NCBI GenBank assembly: GCA_945861305.1
Contig: CAMATW010000040.1
Coordinates: 1 to 21,172, forward strand
Length of the DNA stretch: 21,172 nt
Direction of reading: 5' to 3'
DNA from: Bordetella parapertussis
GTDB taxonomy: Bacteria; Pseudomonadota; Gammaproteobacteria; Burkholderiales; Burkholderiaceae_C
Shown here: one piece after another, positions 6,607 to 21,172 of the stretch
Position numbering within the stretch: position 1 is the stretch's first letter
Layout: each line of letters begins with the position of its first letter
The notes under the pieces: generated by a model
What the model was told of the DNA's origin: nothing
The model's database searches: none
Seen by the model: the letters and a program-made list of their open reading frames with translations, nothing else
Program-made: the position numbers and the translations under genes

Positions 6607-8082
6607 ATGAATGCTGTCACCTCCGCTGAAAAAGCCTCCCTCACCCTTGCTGCGTTGCGCGCCGTGCTGCCCGCGCACGCGGTGCTGTCCTCCAGCGAAA
6701 ACACCACGCCTTATGAGTGCGATGGCCTGACCGCTTACCGCCAACGCCCCATGTGCGTGGTGCTGCCCGAAACCGAAGCGCAAGTGCAAGCCGTGCTGCG
6801 CACCTGCCAGCGCTTGGGTGTGCCGGTGGTGGCTCGCGGTGCGGGCACCGGTTTGTCGGGCGGGGCCATGCCCCATGCCCAAGGCGTCACCTTGTCCCTG
6901 GCCAAGTTCAACAAAATTTTGAAAATGGATGTGCACAGCCGAACCGCCGTGGTGCAGTGCGGTGTGCGCAACTTGGCCATCAGCGAGGCCGCCGCGCCTT
7001 TAGGGCTGTACTACGCGCCTGATCCATCGAGCCAAATCGCTTGCACCATTGGTGGCAATGTGGCGGAAAACTCCGGCGGTGTGCATTGCTTGAAATATGG
7101 CCTCACCCTGCACAACGTCTTGAAGGTGAAAGGCTTCACCATGGACGGAGAGCCCATCGAGTTTGGTGGCGACGCTTTGGATGCCCCAGGCTTGGACCTG
7201 TTGCCACTGGTGGTGGGGTCTGAAGGCATGTTGGCCGTTACCACCGAGGTGACGGTGAAGCTCACGCCCAAGCCGCAATTGGCACGTTGCATCATGGCCA
7301 GCTTTGACGACTTGCGCAAAGCCGGTGACGCGGTGGCGGCGGTTATCGCGGCGGGCATCATCCCCGCGGGCTTAGAGATGATGGACAAGCCCATGACCGC
7401 TGCGGTGGAAGACTTTGTCCAAGCCGGCTACGACCTGAGCGCAGAAGCGATTTTGCTGTGCGAGAGCGACGGCACGCCTGAAGAGGTGGAAGAAGAAATT
7501 GGCCGCATGAGCGCGGTGCTGCAACGCTGTGGCGCAACCGCGATTGCGGTGAGCCGCGACGAGGCCGAGCGCCTGAAGTTTTGGAGTGGCCGCAAAAACG
7601 CGTTTCCAGCAAGTGGGCGCATCAGCCCCGACTACATGTGCATGGACTCAACCATTCCGCGCAAACGCTTGGCAGATATTTTGTTGGCGATTGCCGAGAT
7701 GGAAAAAAAGTACGGCTTGCGCTGCGCCAATGTGTTTCATGCGGGTGACGGCAATCTACATCCGCTGATTTTGTTTGATGCCAACGATCCCGACCAGCTG
7801 CACCGCTGCGAACTCTTTGGCGCGGACATACTGGAGACCAGTGTCGCCATGGGCGGCACCGTGACCGGCGAGCACGGCGTGGGCGTGGAAAAACTCAACT
7901 CTATGTGCGTGCAGTTTTCAGCTGCTGAAAACGAGCAAATGTTTGGCGTCAAACGCGCCTTCGACCCACAGGGTTTGCTCAACCCCGGCAAGGTGATCCC
8001 CACCCTGCAACGCTGTGCCGAGTACGGCAAGATGCTGGTGCGCGGGGGGCAAATCAGCCACCCGGATTTGCCGAGGTTCTAG
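6607..8082 (+). CDS. glcD: Glycolate oxidase FAD-binding subunit GlcD
   Basis: This 491-residue protein is similar along its length to E. coli GlcD as I recall it, with shared stretches such as PYECDGL, RGAGTGLSGG (77-86, FAD site), YYAPDPSSQIACTIGGNVAEN, GLEMMD, FWSGRKNAFP, NVFHAGDGNLHPL, GEHGVG and FDPQGLLNPGK. It has an FAD_binding_4 domain followed by the C-terminal FAD-linked oxidase domain. GlcD oxidises glycolate to glyoxylate and normally needs GlcE and GlcF. Neither is here: the next gene is yggS on the opposite strand. Glyoxylate is the substrate of the sgaA product encoded 6 kb away. There is no good Shine-Dalgarno before the ATG. A TTGACA at 6566-6571 is a possible -35 element without a convincing -10. 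A different D-2-hydroxyacid substrate is possible. Confidence 0.92.
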   Translation: MNAVTSAEKASLTLAALRAVLPAHAVLSSSENTTPYECDGLTAYRQRPMCVVLPETEAQVQAVLRTCQRLGVPVVARGAGTGLSGGAMPHAQGVTLSLAKFNKILKMDVHSRTAVVQCGVRNLAISEAAAPLGLYYAPDPSSQIACTIGGNVAENSGGVHCLKYGLTLHNVLKVKGFTMDGEPIEFGGDALDAPGLDLLPLVVGSEGMLAVTTEVTVKLTPKPQLARCIMASFDDLRKAGDAVAAVIAAGIIPAGLEMMDKPMTAAVEDFVQAGYDLSAEAILLCESDGTPEEVEEEIGRMSAVLQRCGATAIAVSRDEAERLKFWSGRKNAFPASGRISPDYMCMDSTIPRKRLADILLAIAEMEKKYGLRCANVFHAGDGNLHPLILFDANDPDQLHRCELFGADILETSVAMGGTVTGEHGVGVEKLNSMCVQFSAAENEQMFGVKRAFDPQGLLNPGKVIPTLQRCAEYGKMLVRGGQISHPDLPRF

Positions 8083-9916: not shown

Positions 9917-10822
9917 ATGGCCCGCACCAACCCCAAAACCTACGCACCCAGCACCCCCACCAAAGTGGCTTACATTGGCCTGGGTGTCATGGGCTACCCC
10001 ATGGCCGGCCACTTGGCGCTGGCCGGTCACCACGTCACCGTTTACAACCGCAACCCTGCCAAGGCCAAAGACTGGTGCGCCGAGTTCTCTGGCCATGCCA
10101 GCGCCCCCACACCGCGTGAAGCAGCCCTTGGCGCAGACATGGTGTTTTGTTGCGTAGGCAATGACGATGATTTGCGTGCGGTCATGTTGGGTGCCGATGG
10201 CGCCTTGGCTGGCACCAAAGCCGGTGCCCTGCTGATCGACCACACCACCGCCTCGGCCAATGTGGCCCGCGAACTGTTTGCCGCAGCTCTTGCCAAGGGC
10301 GTGCATTTCGTGGATGCCCCTGTTTCAGGCGGTGAGGCTGGCGCCATCAACGGCATGCTGACCGTGATGTGCGGCGGCGAGACCGCTGCTTTTGAGCGCG
10401 CCAAGCCCGTGGGCATGGCCTTCTCCAAAGCCTTCACCTTGATGGGCGAAAGCGGTGCGGGACAGCTCACGAAAATGGTCAACCAAGTTTGCATTGCCGG
10501 GTTGGTGCAAGGCCTCTCCGAGGGCATTGCCTTTGGCATGAAAGCCGGCCTGAACATGGAGCAGGTGTTGGAAGTGATTGGCAAGGGTGCAGCGCAAAGC
10601 TGGCAAATGGACAACCGTGGCAAAACCATGGTAGCCGACAAATTTGACTTTGGCTTTGCGGTCGACTGGATGCGCAAAGACTTGGGGCTGGTCATGGACG
10701 AAGCCAAGCGCAATGGTTCACGCTTACCAGTGACTGCCTTGGTCGACCAGTTTTACGCCGATGTACAAGCCATCGGCGGCAAGCGCTTTGACACCTCTAG
10801 CCTGATCAAGCGCTTGCGCTAA
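9917..10822 (+). CDS. Beta-hydroxyacid dehydrogenase (3-hydroxyisobutyrate / tartronate semialdehyde reductase family)
   Basis: This 301-residue protein has a Rossmann domain with GLGVMG (21-26), the substrate-binding motif DAPVSGGEAGA (133-143), and the catalytic lysine K186 in GAGQLTKMVNQ. The helical C-terminal domain carries a conserved RKDLGL segment. Members reduce or oxidise small beta-hydroxyacids such as 3-hydroxyisobutyrate, tartronate semialdehyde, glyoxylate/succinic semialdehyde or 6-phosphogluconate. The family is clear but the substrate is not. A tartronate semialdehyde or glyoxylate reductase role would tie in with glcD and sgaA in this window, but no gcl is adjacent. AGGAAAG lies upstream of the ATG. 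It converges on the dolP-like gene with a gap of 6 bases. Confidence 0.92.
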   Translation: MARTNPKTYAPSTPTKVAYIGLGVMGYPMAGHLALAGHHVTVYNRNPAKAKDWCAEFSGHASAPTPREAALGADMVFCCVGNDDDLRAVMLGADGALAGTKAGALLIDHTTASANVARELFAAALAKGVHFVDAPVSGGEAGAINGMLTVMCGGETAAFERAKPVGMAFSKAFTLMGESGAGQLTKMVNQVCIAGLVQGLSEGIAFGMKAGLNMEQVLEVIGKGAAQSWQMDNRGKTMVADKFDFGFAVDWMRKDLGLVMDEAKRNGSRLPVTALVDQFYADVQAIGGKRFDTSSLIKRLR

Positions 10823-12102: not shown

Positions 12103-12477
12103 TCATGCCTCAAAGGCGGCTTTAAGCCAGATCAAGTTATCTGCTTGCAGCAGCACTGCATCAAAGCGGCATGGAGGAGGTGTTGGGTACCTGCGCAAAA
12201 AGTGTCTGGCCGCGTACACAAGACGTCTGCGCTTGGTGGCGCTGATGCTGGCACCCGCTCCCCCAAAATCGTCTCTTGCGCGAGCCCTGACCTCGACGAA
12301 CACCAAAGTCCCATCGCACTCGCGCACAATCAGGTCAATTTCGCCACCGCCTCGCCCAGGCGTGCGGTAGTTAGTGGCAAGCAGCGTCAGGCCATGCTCT
12401 AGCAAATGCCGCAAGGCGCGTTGCTCGGCAGCATCGCCGCGTTGCTTGGTGTTGGGTACAGGTAAAGAGGTGTTCAT
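12103..12477 (-). CDS. yraN: YraN/UPF0102 family endonuclease-fold protein
   Basis: This 124-residue protein of the restriction-endonuclease-like fold starts with the family helix RGDAAEQRALRHLLEHGL. It carries the nuclease-type core GEIDLIV (E46, D48) and LVFVEVRAR (E62, with Arg where Lys is more common). The family is conserved in bacteria; a role in DNA or Holliday-junction processing has been suggested but is not settled. An open start at 12696 would overlap most of rsmI's 5' end and adds unrelated sequence, so MNTSLPV at 12477 is chosen. Its start codon touches the TTG start of rsmI on the other strand. Order rsmI / yraN / SIS / BON is the conserved E. coli layout minus lpoA. Confidence 0.93.
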   Translation of the reverse strand: MNTSLPVPNTKQRGDAAEQRALRHLLEHGLTLLATNYRTPGRGGGEIDLIVRECDGTLVFVEVRARARDDFGGAGASISATKRRRLVYAARHFLRRYPTPPPCRFDAVLLQADNLIWLKAAFEA

Positions 12478-13391
12478 TGGTTCAACGTTTTGATTCCGCG
12501 TTAGTGGCAGCCCACGATGCCAGTGCTTCACAAGCGCATCCGCCAGCCTGCCTGTATGTATTGGCCACGCCCATTGGCAATTTGGCGGACATGGGTCTGC
12601 GGGCTTTGCATGTGCTGACGCTGGTCGACGCCATGGCTTGCGAAGACACGCGCCACAGCCAGAGCTTGCTGCGTGGCTATGGCATAGACAAACCATCGAG
12701 TGCTTTTTTGGCGCTGCATCAACACAATGAGACGAGTGCTACAGAGCAAGTAATTTTGCGCTTGCAAAGCGGTCAGCGGGTGGCCTATTTAAGTGACGCA
12801 GGTACACCGGCGATCAGCGACCCAGGCGCAAAGTTGGTGGCCGTGGTTCAAGCCGCAGGTTTTCGGGTCATCCCTATTCCTGGCCCCAGCAGTGTCACCA
12901 CGTTGCTAAGTGTGAGTGGCTGCCTAGGCGACGGGAGTTTTGTCTTTTTAGGTTTCTTGCCCAGCAAATCACAAGAGCGTCAAACTGCCATTCAAGCGAT
13001 GGCGCAAGAGTCACGGGCTCAGGTTTTTTTAGAAGCTCCGCATCGAATTGAAGCAGTCGCCAAGGACATGGCTTTGCTGGGTGAGCGAATGCTCAGCGTT
13101 GGGCGCGAACTCACCAAGCAGTTTGAAGAGGTGGCGGTGATGCGCGCTGACAGGCTCAGCTCATGGCTTGACGCGTCTGCACAGCGCAGCAAAGGTGAAT
13201 TTGCTTTGGTCTTGCACCCCTTGGCGGTTGCCGCACCGGGCTTGGGAGAGGCCGAGCGGGTGCTGGACTTGCTGCTCGCCGAATTGCCCACCAAAAGCGC
13301 TGTGCGCTTGGCCGCGCAAATCTCAGGTGCGCCGCGCAACGCCTTGTATGCATTGGCCTTGCAAAAGAAACCTGAGCAAGGCAGTGAGTGA
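12477..13391 (+). CDS. rsmI: 16S rRNA (cytidine1402-2'-O)-methyltransferase RsmI
   Basis: This 304-residue protein of the tetrapyrrole (corrin/porphyrin) methylase fold methylates the 2'-O of C1402 in the 16S rRNA decoding centre. Visible signatures are LATPIGNLADMGLRAL (29-44), CEDTRHSQSLL (55-65), YLSDAGTPAISDPG (104-117), IPIPGPSSV, GFLPSK, EAPHRI, and VGRELTKQFEE. The start is TTG at 12477, supported by AAAGAGG six bases upstream, inside the yraN 5' codons. A GTG at 12504 has no such site. It ends only 3 bases from the convergent hprA stop, so transcripts from the two must overlap or terminate inside each other. Confidence 0.96.
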   Translation: MVQRFDSALVAAHDASASQAHPPACLYVLATPIGNLADMGLRALHVLTLVDAMACEDTRHSQSLLRGYGIDKPSSAFLALHQHNETSATEQVILRLQSGQRVAYLSDAGTPAISDPGAKLVAVVQAAGFRVIPIPGPSSVTTLLSVSGCLGDGSFVFLGFLPSKSQERQTAIQAMAQESRAQVFLEAPHRIEAVAKDMALLGERMLSVGRELTKQFEEVAVMRADRLSSWLDASAQRSKGEFALVLHPLAVAAPGLGEAERVLDLLLAELPTKSAVRLAAQISGAPRNALYALALQKKPEQGSE

Positions 13392-13394
13392 AAC

Positions 13395-14342
13395 TTAAGT
13401 CACCAAGTGTTGTGGTTTGTCGGCCACGAACGCCTCAATGTTGTCGATCAACTGGTCAGCCAAAAACTGCATGGCTTGCTGCGAGGCCCATGCCACATGT
13501 GGCGTCAAAATGAAATTGGGTGAACGAATATCCAGCAAAGGGTTGCCGTTTTTGGGGGGCTCTTGACTCAGCACATCAAAACCTGCACCGGCAATCACGC
13601 CGGTTTGCAAAGCCACTTTCAAAGCCTCCTCGTCCACCAAACCACCGCGTGAGGTGTTGATGAGCAAAGCGCTGCGCTTCATCTGTTGCAACTGAGCCAT
13701 GCCAATGAAGTGGCGTGAAGCTGGTGTCAAGGGACAGTGCAAAGAAATGATGTCCGATTCAGCGAATACCTGCTCAGGGGGCACAAAGTCCACGCCTGCG
13801 GCCTTGGGTGGCGCATGGTCGGCAAACAACACCTTCATGCCCAAAGCGCGTGCAATTTGCGCTGTGGCTTGACCCAGCACCCCTTCACCAAAAATACCCA
13901 AGGTGCTGCCATGCAAGTCGCGTATGGGGTAATCGAAAAAGCAAAATTGCTCTTCGGTTTGCCAGCGGCCATTGAGCACATCGTCGCGGTAGGCCATCAA
14001 ATTGCGGCGCAAGGCAAAAATCAAGGCGAAAGCATGTTCTGGCACGGTGTGAACCGCATAGTTGCGAATATTGGCCACCGCGACACCGCGTTCACGACAC
14101 GCCTCCACATCCATCACGTCATAGCCGGTAGCGGCCATGGCAATCAGTTTGAGGTCGGGCAGTTGCGCCAAAGTGTCACGACGGATGGGCACTTTGTTGC
14201 TGATCGCAACGGTTGCCCCTTGCAAACGCTCGACCACGTCTTCGGGTCGGGTCTGCACATGCTCGACCCATTCATGCGCAAAAGCCGGTGCGCGCAGCTC
14301 AGCCCTTAACGACTGCCTGTCCAGAAATACTATTTTTTGCAT
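13395..14342 (-). CDS. hprA: Hydroxypyruvate reductase / glycerate dehydrogenase (D-2-hydroxyacid dehydrogenase)
   Basis: This 315-residue NAD(P)-dependent enzyme has the nucleotide loop GEGVLG (152-157). The catalytic set is R232 (NTSRGGLVD), E261 (DVLSQEPP) and H282 (TPHVAW). Family markers such as ATGYDVMD, NIRNYAVHTVPEHAFAL and FCFFDYPIRDLHG fit glycerate dehydrogenases. The likely reaction is hydroxypyruvate to D-glycerate. The SgaA product encoded upstream makes hydroxypyruvate, which supports this over other 2-oxoacids. ATG 14342 is chosen because AAGGA is five bases before it; ATG 14348 would touch the same site with no spacing. The first 44 bases lie inside the end of sgaA, implying translational coupling. 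It is the last gene of the cbb-type operon and converges on rsmI. Confidence 0.9.
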   Translation of the reverse strand: MQKIVFLDRQSLRAELRAPAFAHEWVEHVQTRPEDVVERLQGATVAISNKVPIRRDTLAQLPDLKLIAMAATGYDVMDVEACRERGVAVANIRNYAVHTVPEHAFALIFALRRNLMAYRDDVLNGRWQTEEQFCFFDYPIRDLHGSTLGIFGEGVLGQATAQIARALGMKVLFADHAPPKAAGVDFVPPEQVFAESDIISLHCPLTPASRHFIGMAQLQQMKRSALLINTSRGGLVDEEALKVALQTGVIAGAGFDVLSQEPPKNGNPLLDIRSPNFILTPHVAWASQQAMQFLADQLIDNIEAFVADKPQHLVT

Positions 14343-15552
14343 GCTCATCCTTGTTGAAGACCGGCGCACCCAAGCCAGAGGGCGCAGCGTGCTGGCGCCA
14401 ATAGTTGCCCGCGGCTGCAGAACCGCTGCCAGGTTGCAGCGCAACGCCGCAGTCGAGCATGGCCATTTCAGCACCATTGATCGCCGCCATCAAATGCACC
14501 TCGTTCATATCGCCAAGGTGCCCGATGCGAAAGAGTTTGCCAGCGACTTTGGACAAACCGCCCCCGAGTGACAAGTTGTAACGACGATAAGCGCGAGCAA
14601 TCACTTCCGAGCCTGCAATGCCTGCGGGCAACATCACCGCAGTCACGGTGTCCGAATGCCACTTGGCTTCTACCGCACACAACTTGAGTTGCCAACCTTG
14701 GGTCACTGCAGCGCGTACACCTTCAGCCAAGTAATGGTGGCGGGCAAAGACATTGTCCAAACCTTCTTCGTGCAGCATTTTCATGGACTCGATCAGTCCG
14801 TACATCAATGGCAAAGCGGGGGTATAGGGAAAATAGCCGGTGTTATTGCTTTGCAGCATGTCTTGCAAGTCAAAGTAGGCGCGCTTGAGTTGAGCTATTT
14901 TGTGTTTTTCTAACGCTTTGGCACTGACACACAAAATGCCCAAACCTGCGGGGAGCATCAAGCCTTTTTGCGATCCGCTGACCGCCATGTCCACACCCCA
15001 GTCGTCGAAACGAAAATCGATGCAACCCAAGGAAGAAACACAATCGACGAACAAGAGCGCTGGGTGTGCGGCATCGTCCAAGGCTTCGCGTACGCCTGCG
15101 ATGTCTGAGGCTACACCAGTAGCGGTCTCATTCTGACAAGCCAGCACCGCTTTGAAGCTGTGCTGTGTGTCGTTTTTCAAGATGTCTGCGAATTGCTGCA
15201 AGGGCACACCGGTGCCCCATTCGCACTCGACAACATGAACGTCCAAGCCAAGACGTTGGCACATGTCAATCCACAAATGGCTGAACTGACCAAACCGCGC
15301 TGCAAGCACTTTGTCGCCAGGCGACAAGGTGTTGGTCAATGCCGCTTCCCAGCATCCTGTGCCTGATGAGGGGAATATGAAAGGCGTACCGGTTTTGGTG
15401 CGGAAAATGTCCTTCAACCCACCCAAGATGGTATGCGTGAGATGAGGGAAATTGGGCGAGCGGTGGTCTTCCATGGACACCATCATGGCGCGTTGTATGC
15501 GCTCTGGCACATTGGTGGGACCGGGGACAAACAAGAAATTACGACCAACCAT
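14299..15552 (-). CDS. sgaA: Serine--glyoxylate aminotransferase (class V)
   Basis: This 417-residue class V PLP aminotransferase begins MVGRNFLFVPGPTNVPERIQ, a family hallmark. Other marks are FPSSGTGCWEAALTN (60-74), CQNETATGV (139-147), FVDCVSSLG and the PLP lysine K196 in SGSQKGLMLPAG. Family members (SgaA of methylotrophs, plant AGT1) transfer the amino group of serine to glyoxylate, giving hydroxypyruvate and glycine. The neighbours glyA and hprA make or use exactly these compounds. The start at 15552 has AAGGAG six bases upstream; a TTG at 15567 is not needed. The C-terminus runs about 15 residues into hprA and seems longer than the core family, perhaps through loss of an earlier stop. 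An alanine- or aspartate-glyoxylate specificity is not excluded. Confidence 0.93.
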   Translation of the reverse strand: MVGRNFLFVPGPTNVPERIQRAMMVSMEDHRSPNFPHLTHTILGGLKDIFRTKTGTPFIFPSSGTGCWEAALTNTLSPGDKVLAARFGQFSHLWIDMCQRLGLDVHVVECEWGTGVPLQQFADILKNDTQHSFKAVLACQNETATGVASDIAGVREALDDAAHPALLFVDCVSSLGCIDFRFDDWGVDMAVSGSQKGLMLPAGLGILCVSAKALEKHKIAQLKRAYFDLQDMLQSNNTGYFPYTPALPLMYGLIESMKMLHEEGLDNVFARHHYLAEGVRAAVTQGWQLKLCAVEAKWHSDTVTAVMLPAGIAGSEVIARAYRRYNLSLGGGLSKVAGKLFRIGHLGDMNEVHLMAAINGAEMAMLDCGVALQPGSGSAAAGNYWRQHAAPSGLGAPVFNKDEHAKNSISGQAVVKG

Positions 15553-15594
15553 AGCGAGCTCCTTCAATTGTTTAAAAAAATATCGACCTATTCT

Positions 15595-16890
15595 TCAAGG
15601 ATGCAAAACACTTGCGCCATACACAGGGAATGGCTCCACCAACTCAGCGACCTTGGCACGCGCCTTGGCGATGTGCTGAGCGTCGTCTGGCGCTTCCAGC
15701 ACATCCGCGATCAAATGCGCGGTCATACGCGCTTCTTCTTGGCCAAAGCCACGCGTGGTCATGGCAGGGGTGCCCAAACGAATCCCGCTGGTGACCATGG
15801 GTTTTTCAGGGTCGTTGGGAATGCCGTTTTTGTTGCAGGTGATGTGGGCATGACCCAAAGCAATTTCGGCAGCTTTGCCCGTGATGCCTTTGGCTCGCAA
15901 ATCGACCAACATCACATGGCTTTCGGTGCGGCCACTGACGATGCGCAAACCCCGCTCGACCAAGGTTTTGGCCAAGGTGTCTGCATTCAACAAGACTTGT
16001 TGTTGGTAGGCCTTAAAGGCGGGTTGCAAGGCTTCATGAAAGGCTGTGGCCTTGCCTGCGATGACATGCATCAAGGGTCCACCTTGCATGCCGGGGAAAA
16101 CCGCGCTGTTGATTTTTTTCGACATCTCTTCGCTGTTGGTCAAGATGATGCCGCCACGGGGTCCGCGCAAACTTTTGTGGGTAGTTGAGGTGACCACATC
16201 GGCATAGGGCACCGGGTTGGGGTATGCGCCACCAGCGATCAAGCCGGAGTAATGGGCCATGTCCACCATCAAGTAAGCACCAATACTTTTGGCGACTTGG
16301 GCAAACTTTTCCCAATCAATCTTCAACGAGTAGGCCGATGCGCCAGCGATGATCAGCTTGGGCTTGTGCGTGTGCGCCATTTTCTCCATGGCGTCATAGT
16401 CAATTTCTTCGGCCGCATTCAAACCATAACTCACCACATTGAACCATTTGCCGCTCATGTTCAAGTGCATGCCATGGGTCAGATGGCCGCCTTCTGCCAA
16501 GCTCATGCCCATGATGGTGTCGCCGGGCTGAAGTAAGGCCAAGAACACCGCTTGATTGGCTTGTGAACCGGAGTTGGCCTGCACATTGGCGAAATTTGCA
16601 CCGTAAAGTTCTTTGAGTCGGTCAATACAAAGTTGTTCCACGATGTCGACAAATTCACAACCGCCGTAATAACGTTTGCCAGGGTAACCCTCGGCGTATT
16701 TGTTGGTCAGGACTGAGCCTTGAAGGCGCATCACCGCTGGGCTGGTGTAATTTTCGGAGGCGATCAGTTCGATGTGCTGCTCTTGGCGGGCAGCCTCTTG
16801 CAGCACTGCTGACCACAACTGTGGGTCGCTATGAGACACATCTGAGTGATCAGGGAAGGACATCTTTGCGGGGGAAGTTTTGGTCAGCAT
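15595..16890 (-). CDS. glyA: Serine hydroxymethyltransferase GlyA
   Basis: This 431-residue PLP enzyme interconverts serine and glycine with tetrahydrofolate C1 units. Full family signatures are visible: [13 protein letters not shown] (41-53), [14 protein letters not shown] (64-77), [14 protein letters not shown] (102-115), [13 protein letters not shown] (209-221), and the PLP lysine K239 in [13 protein letters not shown]. An N-terminal extension of about 15 residues ([17 protein letters not shown]) precedes the core. Lying between the Calvin aldolase and sgaA, it is probably a dedicated photorespiratory or serine-cycle copy; a second housekeeping glyA elsewhere is expected but not seen here. 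Codon 1 lacks a strong Shine-Dalgarno (AACAACC), and an ATG at residue 10 is possible. The preceding spacer is very AT-rich, with a weak hairpin. Confidence 0.96.
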
Positions 16891-16901
16891 GGTTGTTTTT
16901 C

Positions 16902-16925
16902 AAAAAATTAAAATGGCAAATTTTA
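16902..16925 (-). terminator. AT-rich hairpin plus T-run between cbbA and glyA (possible attenuator)
   Basis: On the minus strand a perfect 6-bp inverted repeat TAAAAT / ATTTTA with loop TTGCC is followed by a run of six T. It occupies most of the 39-base spacer after the aldolase gene. The stem has only A-T pairs, so it would be a leaky terminator at best. The same stretch contains TTATAAAAT, which could instead act as a -10 element for an internal promoter. Either way it could set the output of glyA-sgaA-hprA relative to the Calvin genes. Confidence 0.3.
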
Positions 16926-16929
16926 TAAT

Positions 16930-17967
16930 TTAAGGGTAACGACCTGCCATAGCGTCAAGAGAAACCACTTTAATACTGGCGGCTTTGCCTGCACAGCCAA
17001 ACGCCTCAAAGCGGGCTTTGCAAATGCCCTTGGCGGCTTTGCGTGCAGCGATCAAGGCTTTGCGTGGATCAAACTCACTGCGGTCTTGGGCAAACGATTG
17101 GCGCATCGCGCCAGTCATGGCCAAGCGGATGTCGGTATCAATGTTCACCTTGCGCACCCCCGAGCGGATGCCGCGCTGAATTTCTTCCACGGGCACGCCA
17201 TAGGTTTCTTTGATGTCGCCACCAAACTCGCGGATGATGGCCAACCATTCTTGCGGCACGCTGGAGGAGCCATGCATCACCAAATGGGTGTTGGGAATGG
17301 ATTGGTGGATGGCTACGATTTGGTCCATGGCCAAAATATCGCCCGTGGGTTTGCGGGTGAATTTATAAGCACCGTGGCTGGTGCCAATCGCAATCGCCAA
17401 GGCATCCACACCGGTGCGCTCAACAAAATCTTTGGCTTGCACAGGGTCGGTGAGCAGCATGTCGTGGGTGAGTTTGCCCACAGCGCCAATGCCGTCTTCT
17501 TCACCGGCCTCGCCGGTTTCCAATGAGCCCAAACAACCTAACTCGCCCTCTACAGACACACCTACAGAATGTGCCATTTCGCACACGCGGCGAGTGACGT
17601 CGATGTTGTATTCGTAGGACGAAGGTGTTTTGCCGTCTTGCATCAGCGAGCCATCCATCATCACGCTGGAAAAGCCTGAGCGAATCGACTGCTGACACAC
17701 GGCAGGTGACACGCCATGGTCTTGGTGCATCACCACCGGAATATCGGGATGGGTCTCAACCGCAGCCAAAACCAAGTGACGCAGATAGGCCTCTCCAGCG
17801 TATTTGCGCGCACCTGCAGACGCCTGCAATATCACGGGACTGTCGGTCTCTTGAGCAGCCTCCATGATGGCCTGCACTTGCTCGAGGTTGTTGACGTTGA
17901 AAGCAGGGATGCCATAGCCATGCTCGGCAGCATGGTCTAACAATTGGCGCAGGGATACGAGGGCCAT
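16930..17967 (-). CDS. cbbA: Fructose-bisphosphate aldolase, class II, Calvin-cycle type
   Basis: This 345-residue zinc-dependent aldolase has zinc-binding HQDHG (81-85), [20 protein letters not shown], the GTSHGAYKF phosphate/zinc loop, HGSSSVP and KVNIDTD. The length and the GELG-x-LG-x-LETG pattern fit the class II subtype found in proteobacterial cbb operons. It joins glyceraldehyde 3-phosphate and dihydroxyacetone phosphate to fructose 1,6-bisphosphate, and by the same chemistry makes sedoheptulose 1,7-bisphosphate in the cycle. GGAGA lies before the ATG. It is 30 bases after the phosphoribulokinase stop, with which it must be co-transcribed. Naming it cbbA rather than fba rests on this context. 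Confidence 0.95.
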
Positions 17968-17992
17968 GAATTTCTCCAGTTAAAAAGGGGGT

Positions 17993-18009
17993 GGCCTTCA
18001 GGCCTTTTT
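17993..18009. terminator. Small GGCC-TTCA-GGCC hairpin at cbbP end
   Basis: GGCC (17993-17996), loop TTCA, GGCC (18001-18004), then TTTTT on the plus strand. On the minus strand, the sense strand of the operon, it is preceded by AAAAA and followed by ACCCCC and TTTTT. A 4-bp stem is short and the hairpin overlaps the cbbP stop. It may slightly slow or protect the transcript 3' end; strong termination is unlikely since the operon continues. Confidence 0.2.
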
Positions 18010-18870
18010 CTTGCGCTCCATCATGCGCCACACGAACGGCGTGAAGATGAGTTGCATGGCGAGTTCCATCTTGCCGCCAGGCACCACCACGGTATTGGCG
18101 CGAGACATGAAGGAGTCGGGGATCATGTTGAGCAAGTAGGGGAAGTCGATGCCTTTTGGGTTGGCAAAACGAATCACCACAAAACTTTCATCAGGTGCGG
18201 GAATTTCTCGCGCAATGAAGGGGTTGGAGGTATCCACGCAGGGAACACGCTGAAAGTTCACATGGGTGTGGGCGAACTGTGGGCAGATGTAATTCACATA
18301 GTCGGGCATGCGGCGCAAAATAGTGTCTGTCACCGCCTCAGTGGAATAGCCACGCTTGGATTTGTCGCGCCACAGTTTCTGTATCCACTCCAAATTGATG
18401 ACGGGCACCACGCCGATCAGCAAGTCGGGGTGCTGTGCAATATTGACCTCGGGGGTAACAACCGCGCCGTGAAGGCCTTCATAAAACAACAAATCGGTGC
18501 CGCTGGGCACATCTTCCCAAGGCGTGAAAGTGCCAGGGTCTTGTTTGTAGGGTGCGGCCTCTTCGTTGTCGTGCAAGTATTTACGCCGCTTACCTGTGCC
18601 GGTTTCGCCATAAGCGCGAAACAAGGTTTCGAGTTCTGAGAACAAATTTGTGGTTGGCCCAAAGTGGCTGAAATTTTTATCGCCCTGCTTTTCTGCCTCT
18701 GCGGCTTTTTTGCGCATTTCCAAACGGTCATAGCGGTGAAAACTGTCGCCTTCGATAATGGCAGCACTTACCTTTTCACGCCGAAAAATGTTCTCGAACG
18801 TGCGCGTCACCGAGGTGGTGCCAGCACCTGATGAACCGGTGATGGCAATGATGGGGTGTTTAACGGACAT
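17998..18870 (-). CDS. cbbP: Phosphoribulokinase
   Basis: This 290-residue protein is the normal size for the proteobacterial octameric PRK. The P-loop is GSSGAGTTS (12-20), followed by the acid segment IEGDSFHRYDR, the YEGLHG loop, and a KRGYSTEAVTDTILRRMPDY segment with conserved basic residues. It phosphorylates ribulose 5-phosphate to ribulose 1,5-bisphosphate, the dedicated RuBisCO substrate, so its presence marks a functional Calvin cycle rather than a RuBisCO-like protein pathway. The start has GAAAG upstream. It lies between cbbF (31-base gap) and cbbA. Confidence 0.97.
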   Translation of the reverse strand: MSVKHPIIAITGSSGAGTTSVTRTFENIFRREKVSAAIIEGDSFHRYDRLEMRKKAAEAEKQGDKNFSHFGPTTNLFSELETLFRAYGETGTGKRRKYLHDNEEAAPYKQDPGTFTPWEDVPSGTDLLFYEGLHGAVVTPEVNIAQHPDLLIGVVPVINLEWIQKLWRDKSKRGYSTEAVTDTILRRMPDYVNYICPQFAHTHVNFQRVPCVDTSNPFIAREIPAPDESFVVIRFANPKGIDFPYLLNMIPDSFMSRANTVVVPGGKMELAMQLIFTPFVWRMMERKKKA

Positions 18871-18901
18871 GGTTTTCTTTCAATCAATCAGGGACAAAAC
18901 A

Positions 18902-19996
18902 CTAGGCCCTGAAGAGCGTGCGCTCGGCGAACAAGGGGTTATCGATTTCACGCGGCACAGGTTCCCTGTGATATCGCTCAATTCGCTCAACTTCATTTTT
19001 AGAGCCAAACACCAAGCCGATACGTTGGTGCAGGCCTGTGGGCGTAACGCTCAGCATGGGTTCACGCCCGGTGCTAGCGCGACCTCCCGCTTGCTCCATG
19101 ATCATGCCGATGGGGTTGGCTTCGTAGAGCAAACGCAAGCGGCCAGGCTTGCTGAGGTCTTTGGTGTCGCGGGGATACATAAAGACGCCTCCGCGCATCA
19201 AGATCCGATGCGCTTCTGCCACCATGGATGCAATCCAGCGCATATTGAAGTCTTTGCCACGCTCACCCGATTTGCCAGCCAAGCATTCGTCTACATAGCG
19301 CTTGATGGGTGGCTCCCAAAAGCGACTGTTGGAGGCGTTGATAGCAAATTCTTGGGTGTCGACGGGCACTTGCAACTTGGGGTGGGTCAACATGAACTCC
19401 CCCAAGTTTGGTTCCAGCGTAAAAGCGGATACCCCATTACCCACGGTCAACACCAGCATGGTGGTGGGGCCGTAGAGCGCATAACCTGCCGCCAATTGCG
19501 TTGCGCCTGCTTGTAAAAAATCTGCTTCGACCAAATCGCGGCCGCTGTCGATGGCGTCTTGCGGTGCTCGCAGGATGGAGAAGATGCTGCCCACAGACAC
19601 ATTCACATCGATATTGGACGAGCCATCCAAGGGGTCAAACACCAACAGGTATTTCCCACGCGGGTACTTGCCAGGTATTTGGTAGGGGTCGGTCATTTCC
19701 TCTGAGGCCATACCGGCCAAATGACCCGCCCATTCATTCACGCGAATAAACAGGTCATTGCTCAGCACATCGAGCTTCTTCTGTGTTTCACCCTGCACAT
19801 TGATCGCACCACCGTCTTGTGCGGCATGGTCACCATACAAGCCACCCAGTTCACCCATGGCTACAGCGCGGGCAATGGCTTTGCAAGCCAAGGCCACATC
19901 CAAAATCAAGGCATTGAATTCGCCTTTGGAGTCCGGAAAGCGACGGCGTTCTTCAATCAGGTATTGGGTCAGTGTGGTGCGTTGACGTAAGGGCAT
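18902..19996 (-). CDS. cbbF: Fructose-1,6-bisphosphatase, class I
   Basis: This 364-residue class I FBPase carries the metal and substrate motif [10 protein letters not shown] (121-130). Others are [57 protein letters not shown] and ASTGREP. It hydrolyses fructose 1,6-bisphosphate and, in autotrophs, often sedoheptulose 1,7-bisphosphate. A strong GGAGG lies four bases before the chosen ATG. As part of the cbb set it is probably the autotrophic isozyme; some heterotrophs of this group keep a second fbp. It lies 18 bases after cbbY. Confidence 0.96.
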
Positions 19997-20014
19997 GATG
20001 CCTCCATGGTGTTT

Positions 20015-20722
20015 TTATGCTTGATGCCAAGTGCGCAACTGCTCAACACTGACGCCTTCTAAATTGGGCAATACCCGCAACGCTCCCGTGAAGTCGTGAT
20101 GTGATGTGAAATTATTGGGTGTGATGATGGTTTTGAGTCCTGCTGCGACAGCCGCACGCAAGCCATTGGAAGAGTCTTCCAAAGCCAAACAAGCAACAGG
20201 GGGCAATCCCAATCGGGCCAATGTTTGCACATACACCTGGGGATGGGGTTTTTTCTTGGGGGCGGTAGACGCGTCTTCGATGACGATAAACAAGTCTTTC
20301 CAATCTGGGCCAATGGCGTTGCGCAACAGCACCGCGATATTGACAGGCGAGGTGGTGGTGGCAATCGCCAAACGCAGGCCTTGATGATGTGCTTGCTGAA
20401 TCAGCGCCAATACCCCAGGGCGCAACTGAACAGCCCCACCTTGCACAGCAGCTTCATAGGCCGCTGTTTTCAAAGCGTGAAGGTGGTCAATGGTGTCACG
20501 CAAGCCTGAACCGTCTATGTCTTTCATGTCAGGATGCACATGATTCCAATAGTGCAACATCCGCTCTTTGCCGCCCGATATTTCTAACAAGCCTGTGTAC
20601 AAGGCCACATCCCAATGCCAGTCTAGGCCTTGCTCAGCAAAGGCGTGGTTAAAGGCGGCCAAGTGTGCGCTTTCGGTGTCGGCTAAGGTGCCGTCGACAT
20701 CGAATATCAGCGCTTTAAGCAT
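20015..20722 (-). CDS. cbbY: CbbY, HAD-family xylulose-1,5-bisphosphate phosphatase
   Basis: This 235-residue HAD phosphatase has the nucleophile motif FDVDGTLADTE (7-17, D8/D10), the second motif ATTTSP, lysine in KKKPHPQVY and the acid motif ALEDSSNG. The cap region GGKERMLHYW fits CbbY. In red-type RuBisCO organisms CbbY removes xylulose 1,5-bisphosphate, a misfire inhibitor, acting with the activase CbbX. That pairing is present here. MLKALIFDVDG at 20722 is the usual family start; an in-frame ATG at 20749 overlaps the cbbX stop by 8 bases and would couple translation, so the start is uncertain by 9 codons. A general phosphoglycolate phosphatase (CbbZ) is a less likely reading. Confidence 0.9.
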   Translation of the reverse strand: MLKALIFDVDGTLADTESAHLAAFNHAFAEQGLDWHWDVALYTGLLEISGGKERMLHYWNHVHPDMKDIDGSGLRDTIDHLHALKTAAYEAAVQGGAVQLRPGVLALIQQAHHQGLRLAIATTTSPVNIAVLLRNAIGPDWKDLFIVIEDASTAPKKKPHPQVYVQTLARLGLPPVACLALEDSSNGLRAAVAAGLKTIITPNNFTSHHDFTGALRVLPNLEGVSVEQLRTWHQA

Positions 20723-20741
20723 CAGATCACTTTCAACATGT

Positions 20742-21172
20742 TTATTCATCCGAGCGAACGTCCGCTTGCTGAAAGACCCGACTGGCGGCGAAGTCAGACG
20801 CAGTCAGGGTCCTTAAATCATCGACGCTGAGCTGTCGGTCGCGGTCGGCAAAGAGCCTGCTGGCCTGGCGCAGGCGCGCCCGGTCCAATGCATTGCGCAC
20901 GCTGCGGGCGTTGGCAAAGTGGGGCTGCTGCACCCGCAAGCTGAGGTAGCGCTGGAACACCGCGTCGGCATCCGGCGCAAACACATAGTTCTGCTGAACC
21001 AGCATTTTTTGCGAAATCTGCACCAACTCGTCAACCGAATAATCGGGGAAGTCGAGGTGGTGTGCGACGCGTGAACTCATGCCGGGGTTGGATTCGAAGA
21101 AGGTATCCATCCGGTCTTTGTAACCCGCCAGAATCACCACCAGGTCATCGCGCTGGTTTTCCATGACTTGCA
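20742..21172 (-). CDS. cbbX: CbbX, AAA+ red-type RuBisCO activase (partial, N-terminus beyond window)
   Basis: The last 142 residues are present, and the gene continues past base 21172. Visible are QVMENQRDDLVVILAGYKDRM (end of the AAA+ core, sensor-1 area), the NPGMSSRVAHHLDFPDY segment with the arginine-finger/pore-proximal region, and the C-terminal helical lid with ANARSVRNALDRARLRQASRL (sensor-2 region). Walker A and B lie outside. CbbX remodels inhibited form I red-type RuBisCO, so cbbL and cbbS are expected upstream on the minus strand, just beyond the right edge. The stop lies 20 bases before the preferred cbbY start. Confidence 0.95.
   Translation of the reverse strand, partial: QVMENQRDDLVVILAGYKDRMDTFFESNPGMSSRVAHHLDFPDYSVDELVQISQKMLVQQNYVFAPDADAVFQRYLSLRVQQPHFANARSVRNALDRARLRQASRLFADRDRQLSVDDLRTLTASDFAASRVFQQADVRSDE

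Follow-up and report, generated by a model that had tools for sequence, protein, structure and literature searches.

Why should an operon for the Calvin cycle end in three genes for the conversion of glyoxylate and glycine, through serine and hydroxypyruvate, to glycerate? The question is raised by contig CAMATW010000040.1 of assembly GCA_945861305.1, the whole 21,172 nucleotides of which are referred to here as the window. On its minus strand, between positions 13395 and 21172, eight genes follow one another in the transcription order cbbX (partial)-cbbY-cbbF-cbbP-cbbA-glyA-sgaA-hprA. Our answer is that this operon probably combines Calvin-cycle enzymes with the front half of the serine cycle, the latter acting as a salvage route, and we favour a history in which this half cycle was captured by the cbb operon.

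In the proposed route, serine-glyoxylate aminotransferase (SgaA) would transfer the amino group from serine to glyoxylate, yielding hydroxypyruvate and glycine, and serine hydroxymethyltransferase (SHMT; GlyA) would rebuild serine from glycine and methylene-tetrahydrofolate. Hydroxypyruvate reductase (HprA) would convert hydroxypyruvate to glycerate, which a kinase encoded outside the operon would turn into phosphoglycerate. The net outcome would be one glycerate from one glyoxylate and one one-carbon (C1) unit, with the amino group recycled; the three enzymes would close the amino-group loop unaided, so that a second aminotransferase would be unneeded and neither CO2 nor ammonia would be released. 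The glyoxylate would derive from the oxygenase reaction of RuBisCO by way of glycolate, possibly also from external glycolate, and the C1 unit of methylene-tetrahydrofolate mainly from formate through formate-tetrahydrofolate ligase (FTHFS). These two sources, the co-transcription of the genes and the direction of flux are what we infer from observed gene content, gene order and its conservation, partner genes present or absent in relatives, and positions in gene trees.

The genes of the run are closely packed, with no intergenic gap larger than 42 nt. In transcription order, the gaps from cbbY to sgaA measure 18, 31, 30, 39 and 42 nt, while cbbX overlaps cbbY by 8 nt and sgaA overlaps hprA by 44 nt; the 3′ end of hprA lies 3 nt from the convergent rsmI. 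Family matches (Table 1) and spacing bear out an earlier note on this DNA, which had listed the eight same-strand genes with short gaps or overlaps, and also its remark that cbbE, cbbT, cbbG, cbbK and cbbZ are missing: none occurs within 13395-21172, because the eight genes fill the whole stretch. The window end truncates cbbX, and cbbLS is therefore a presumed member of the operon in the window itself. The start of sgaA is likely at 15552 and that of hprA likely at 14342 (315 amino acids) rather than at the longest-frame start, 14477, since the same 44-nt overlap is conserved in relatives. Scans for promoters (2 matches against a shuffle mean of 4.4) and terminators (12 against 11.1) gave no signal above chance, and every terminator-like match on the minus strand falls inside a gene.

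Table 1. Features of the window with their coordinates and the matches on which the assignments are based (scores in bits).
Gene	Product or role	Position	Strand	Basis
cbbX	red-type RuBisCO activase	20742..21172	-	C-terminal 142 codons; TIGR02880 207.5, model positions 152-284
cbbY	HAD phosphatase	20015..20749	-	PF00702/PF13419
cbbF	class 1 fructose-bisphosphatase	18902..19996	-	NF006779 511 (cut-off 349)
cbbP	phosphoribulokinase	17998..18870	-	NF011997 515 (cut-off 362)
cbbA	class II fructose-bisphosphate aldolase	16930..17967	-	TIGR01521 605.5 (cut-off 496)
glyA	serine hydroxymethyltransferase	15595..16890	-	NF000586 643 (cut-off 335); SHMT tree: not the family's housekeeping type
sgaA	serine-glyoxylate aminotransferase	14299..15552	-	class-V aminotransferase; closest solved structure 6pk1
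hprA	hydroxypyruvate reductase	13395..14342	-	D-2-hydroxyacid dehydrogenase; NF005069 370 (below cut-off 448); PF02826 180
rsmI	housekeeping, convergent, operon boundary	12477..13391	+	TIGR00096 226 (cut-off 168)
glcD-like	FAD subunit	6607..8082	+	NF008408 736 (below cut-off 897); about 5 kb off, outside the operon

The substrate specificities of SgaA, GlyA and HprA are predicted, hydroxypyruvate being assigned to HprA from gene context. The solved structure closest to SgaA bears the name serine-glyoxylate aminotransferase. GlyA has a 13-residue motif, which we take to be the pyridoxal phosphate-lysine site, HprA has the sites NTSRGG, SQEPP and HVAW, presumably catalytic, and motifs that we likewise assume to be catalytic are present in SgaA, phosphoribulokinase (PRK) and fructose-bisphosphate aldolase (FBA). 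CbbY reaches 59 bits only on TIGR01449, the model for bacterial phosphoglycolate phosphatase, the cut-off of which is 180, and the operon contains no gene for that phosphatase. The glcD-like gene is a candidate supplier of glyoxylate; it is conserved in two relatives (loci L004 and L074).

A search of a genome collection with SgaA returned 76 loci, ten of which (L001-L008, L069 and L074, from genomes G001-G010) have the gene order of the window, whole or in part; we call this order layout A. These relatives are draft bins without a stated completeness, mostly labelled Comamonadaceae or Burkholderiales. The titles of L003, L048 and L069 say Bordetella, Klebsiella and Rickettsia, and look wrong, their sgaA grouping with Burkholderiales bins. 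The source lineage, an uncultured one, is probably from fresh water, an assumption based on sample codes and on the wording of some titles, for example 'pond' in that of L001. Comparing the order in relatives, as the earlier note had advised, shows that its linkage of the glyoxylate-to-glycerate branch to the cbb operon holds in the ten draft genomes: glyA is followed by sgaA in nine (the exception is L074) and cbbA by glyA in eight, the contig of G006 beginning inside glyA and G010 having no glyA. A single 12-kb contig, L069, carries cbbL(part)-cbbS-cbbX-cbbY-cbbF-cbbP-cbbA-glyA-sgaA-hprA; its CbbX is complete and scores 524.8 bits on TIGR02880, above the cut-off. The run cbbL-S-X-Y-F-P and onward is also seen in L149 (G004, cbbL to glyA), and in L074, L146 (G002, where it extends to glyA) and L147 it is preceded by a divergent cbbR. 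In these relatives the operon thus matches the red-type, cbbX-bearing cbb operon of proteobacteria. Relative to L001, L069 and L005, glyA, sgaA and hprA have dN/dS values of 0.018-0.057, similar to the 0.000-0.054 of fba, prk and fbp; the low values of the former three indicate purifying selection and a gene run that is not due to chance.

Partner genes were sought family by family in 30 genomes: the ten of layout A, nine (G011-G019) of a second arrangement, layout B, described below, and eleven comparison genomes (G020-G030). Presence and absence hence refer to relatives of the window and not to its own genome. The features of a C1-coupled salvage are each found in eight of the ten layout A genomes, namely FTHFS (in G002 and G007 as pieces only), glcE over the cut-off and the MOFRL glycerate kinase domain; in layout B each is found in seven of nine. 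One FTHFS protein of layout A scores 890 bits on its model, for which the cut-off is 652. Absence of both glycerate kinase and glycine cleavage would, according to the earlier note, have argued against a linked salvage pathway; glycine cleavage genes were indeed not found in the ten relatives, and the kinase domain was found in eight. Downstream of the FTHFS gene, the six layout A loci that were fetched (L089-L094) share a same-strand conserved protein that by inspection is cytochrome c peroxidase- or MauG-like, and in layout B six genomes have FTHFS and gcvP about 0.9 kb apart (G014:C218, G015:C21, G017:C51, G018:C4, G019:C27 and G011:C198).

Form I RuBisCO is present in 8/10 layout A genomes (G005 has a weak RuBisCO-like match only, G006 none) and in 9/9 of layout B. 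By inspection, the match in G001 is not the RuBisCO of the operon and looks like a carboxysomal form IA enzyme with a CsoS2 neighbour, so that operon-type RuBisCO is seen in seven of ten. The locus in question, L143 6559-10641, belongs to the bin closest to the window, and its form IA-like RuBisCO and CsoS2-like protein could be a second RuBisCO with a carboxysome or a contamination of the bin. The photosynthetic reaction centre gene pufM was found in 9/10 layout A and 7/9 layout B genomes.

Layout B comprises 15 SgaA loci, 11 of which are seen to continue into cbb genes, with sgaA followed on the same strand by cbbL-S-X-Y-F-P. Upstream of sgaA lie a divergent cbbR-type regulator and, further on, the photosynthesis genes ppsR, bchG and bchP. 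In these Rhodoferax-like genomes (for example L014 10013-11200), sgaA therefore sits between regulator and cbbL, at the opposite end of the cbb operon. In L014, the sole layout B locus scanned, the regulator reaches 310 of 450 bits on the CbbR model, and the gene at the end resembles phosphoglycolate phosphatase (210 bits, cut-off 225). A third set, group D (L021-L024, L026 and L027), has sgaA without cbb neighbours within the fetched stretches, and in one D genome the cbb genes (L151) occur without sgaA. Among the remaining SgaA loci are clusters of serine-cycle genes that contain mtkA, mcl, ftfL or gck. A quick-method SgaA tree of 73 rows (without L051, L068, L070, L073, L074 and L076, which span fewer than some 350 residues of the query, and without the duplicate L153) resolves layout A, layout B and group D as one clade each, with Shimodaira-Hasegawa-like approximate likelihood ratio test (SH-aLRT) values of 99, 98 and 100. 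The three together form one clade (99; A with B only 83), and sgaA of all three therefore shares one origin, while its position in the cbb operon differs between A and B and it is not seen within that operon in D.

In the SHMT tree, from which rows shorter than 180 residues were omitted together with seven loci that were duplicates or overlapped, the glyA of the operon groups (SH-aLRT 99) with glyA of glyA-sgaA clusters, including the mtkA-bearing L045, L048 and L049 and, among genomes, G029 and G030. Apart from these stand the family's housekeeping copies: the SHMT outside the operon in G001-G005 and G009, and the sole SHMT of G010, group (99) with SHMT of three of the nine layout B and two of the three D genomes; G006 has an additional SHMT fragment that was not placed, and G007 and G008 have the operon copy only. 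HprA of layout A forms one clade (100) in a tree without rows under 200 residues and without L148, a duplicate of L074. The exact 44-nt overlap of sgaA and hprA recurs in 11 loci without cbb genes (L020, L028-L035, L051 and L071), with ftfL directly after hprA in L032 and L071 and other genes there in L028 and L029. One genome with this overlap, G027, has form I RuBisCO and pieces of ftfL, and neither gcvP, gcvT, mtkA nor an over-cut-off gcl was found in it.

The alternative that survives best, although we regard it as unlikely, is that the module serves chiefly to assimilate glycolate from outside the cell, or glyoxylate derived from purines, together with C1 compounds, its linkage to cbb reflecting shared autotrophic or methylotrophic growth rather than oxygenation by RuBisCO. 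Such a reading gains from the glycerate kinase gene of L096-L098 (layout A), which by inspection lies among purine-degradation-like genes and hints at a possible second source of glyoxylate, and from alcohol dehydrogenases of the pyrroloquinoline quinone (PQQ) methanol/ethanol family, over the cut-off in 7/10 layout A and 0/9 layout B genomes (one fragment in B). Two of three such enzymes, L105 and L106, have the residues D-Y-D at a position that we take to be the lanthanide-binding site, and the third, L107 (1405-3084), which is closely similar to them, has D-Y-V. The neighbour of L106 is MoxJ-like, below the cut-off of the model (115 of 212 bits), and one XoxF candidate scores nearly equally on the structures of a PQQ ethanol dehydrogenase (404 bits) and an XoxF-like methanol dehydrogenase (399 bits). 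Against this stands the position of glyA-sgaA-hprA inside the cbb operon itself; moreover, linkage of sgaA to cbb at two different places in two groups points to glyoxylate derived from RuBisCO.

A plant-like C2 cycle, in which glycine cleavage and SHMT make one serine from two glycines with loss of CO2 and ammonia, appears improbable. It too would use all three operon enzymes, and glcE and the glycerate kinase domain, each in 8/10 relatives, would serve it equally. In that cycle, glycine cleavage supplies methylene-tetrahydrofolate and one CO2 is lost per two glycines. Yet neither gcvP nor gcvT was found in any of the ten operon-bearing genomes, against 8/9 for each in layout B (gcvP in G011 and G012 as fragments, gcvT over the cut-off), the related group with sgaA beside cbbL. 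If the bins are independent, a gene that they all had would escape detection in every one of the ten with a probability of about 2e-8, given that seven other markers were detected in these bins at an average rate of 0.83. Consequently, the C1 unit would have to come from elsewhere, and FTHFS is an available entry for formate. In the literature the cycle has some standing: passages of a review call the plant-like glycolate pathway confirmed in purple non-sulfur bacteria (PMC8307300), and part of a genome survey describes the glycine cleavage P-protein as enriched in Calvin-cycle genomes (PMC7895386). We reject it as the principal account for want of the glycine cleavage genes in the ten relatives.

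The earlier note had preferred a plant-like C2 route to the glyoxylate carboligase (glycerate) route. The second half of that preference stands, since gcl over the cut-off occurs in 0/10 layout A genomes (and in 0/9 of layout B, with weaker matches to related enzymes in all 30 genomes), and the carboligase route is rejected; the first half falls with gcvP and gcvT. The other option in that note, C1 assimilation as in the front half of the serine cycle, agrees better with the ten relatives than the C2 cycle does, no gcv gene being found in them. Near the operon lies a conserved tartronate-semialdehyde-reductase-like gene (window 9917-10822; 232 bits, cut-off 341), even though gcl has no over-cut-off match in the ten.

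A full serine cycle that supports methylotrophic growth is very improbable. The operon genes glyA, sgaA and hprA are serine-cycle genes, they are clustered as such a cycle would have them, and the operon glyA groups with that of some mtkA-bearing clusters; but malate thiokinase (mtkA) was found in 0/10 layout A genomes, and in 0/9 of layout B, as against 7/11 of G020-G030 at 75-100% identity. The matches in the former two groups are 44-56% identical and were taken as succinyl-CoA ligase. Queries with mtkA, mcl and gck have no match within the ten loci of layout A (mcl was not searched genome-wide). The full cycle is rejected for lack of malate thiokinase in the relatives, and formaldehyde oxidation linked to tetrahydromethanopterin is rejected as well, Fae occurring in one of the ten layout A genomes (0/9 in layout B). 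Weakest of all, and scarcely credible, is the proposal that the aminotransferase is BhcA of a beta-hydroxyaspartate cycle: BhcA is its best NCBIfam model, but the 587 bits are below the cut-off of 650 and within the 577-610 bits of ten SgaA homologues (four of them in loci with mtkA; the comparison included no BhcA protein as positive control), the operon, unlike that of Ruegeria pomeroyi, has no bhcB, bhcC or bhcD, and the identity is therefore rejected.

Several observations count against the half serine cycle itself. The absences of partner genes come from draft relatives whose completeness is not given, no FTHFS was found in either G003 or G008, and the enzyme can run in reverse. The single promoter-like match on the minus strand lies inside cbbA, so glyA-sgaA-hprA could have a promoter of their own, although such matches are no more frequent than expected by chance. 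Other mtkA-bearing clusters (such as L050, L053, L055, L065 and L070) have a glyA that falls on the housekeeping side of the SHMT tree, and that of the 44-nt-overlap loci L020, L032, L035 and L071 falls in yet another group, apart from the operon glyA; a 'serine-cycle-type SHMT' is therefore not one clade. In G010 (L074/L148), glyA and about 290 codons of sgaA are missing from the operon, and some 60 nt of other sequence separate fba from what is left of sgaA. The gap, near L074 7910-8331, leaves hprA intact and may be a real deletion or an assembly error. The only SHMT of G010 is of the housekeeping type, and neither an over-cut-off gcl nor gcv was found there; unless the assembly is wrong, the route is broken in this genome and something else must cope. 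Finally, FTHFS added to Synechocystis did not bring the expected incorporation of formate, according to the pertinent passages of PMC7372957.

Taken further, and with rather less confidence than in the salvage route itself, the half serine cycle may give phototrophic Comamonadaceae a natural photorespiration without loss of CO2. Joining glyoxylate from RuBisCO to a formate-derived C1 unit, it would have replaced glycine cleavage and glyoxylate carboligase as well as the remaining serine-cycle steps, and would rebuild each product of oxygenation to a C3 acid with a net gain of carbon. A photorespiratory bypass that loses no CO2 is a goal sought by engineers, and the operon is a candidate natural example, wired into the CO2-fixation operon of a lineage in which 9/10 examined relatives also have a photosynthetic reaction centre gene. 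What is new is the fusion into the cbb operon together with the absence of the alternatives tested; the pathway idea is already in print for Methylococcus and Sphaerotilus. In the open-licence PubMed Central (PMC) literature, the titles and abstract openings among the matches listed describe no cbb operon carrying glyA-sgaA-hprA.

How does the proposed route compare with known systems? Cupriavidus necator is likewise a Calvin-cycle betaproteobacterium. Unlike the relatives studied here, it employs the glyoxylate carboligase (glycerate) pathway and a malate cycle, and gcvTHP is present; the C2 cycle does not operate, and, in the relevant part of the account, no dedicated serine- or glycine-dependent transaminase is annotated (PMC7486775). 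For purple non-sulfur bacteria, the review passages on the subject name four known salvage pathways, a C1-coupled half-serine-cycle route not being among them (PMC8307300). The synthetic formate entry in Synechocystis resembles our proposal in that FTHFS supplies the C1 unit for converting glycine to serine, and differs, in the passages concerned, in being engineered and retaining glycine decarboxylase (PMC7372957). Closer is Sphaerotilus, with sga, glyA and hprA and without mtkBA or mcl, for which an incomplete serine cycle fed by 2-phosphoglycolate from the RuBisCO oxygenase reaction is proposed; hydroxypyruvate reductase and glycolate dehydrogenase activities appear in S. sulfidivorans only under methylotrophic growth. 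In contrast to our reading, the route is seen by its authors as compensatory, and the main text does without the words 'operon' and 'glycine cleavage' (PMC13300288). Methylococcus capsulatus Bath differs in being a methanotroph with gcv genes, and no cbb-glyA-sgaA-hprA operon is described in the pertinent part of the paper (PMC8388818). It shares with our relatives RuBisCO, a putative glycolate oxidase and SgaA, its sga mutant shows a growth defect, and the authors suggest, in that same part, a serine-cycle variant of phosphoglycolate salvage in which phosphoglycolate-derived glyoxylate is proposed to enter the serine cycle (PMC8388818).

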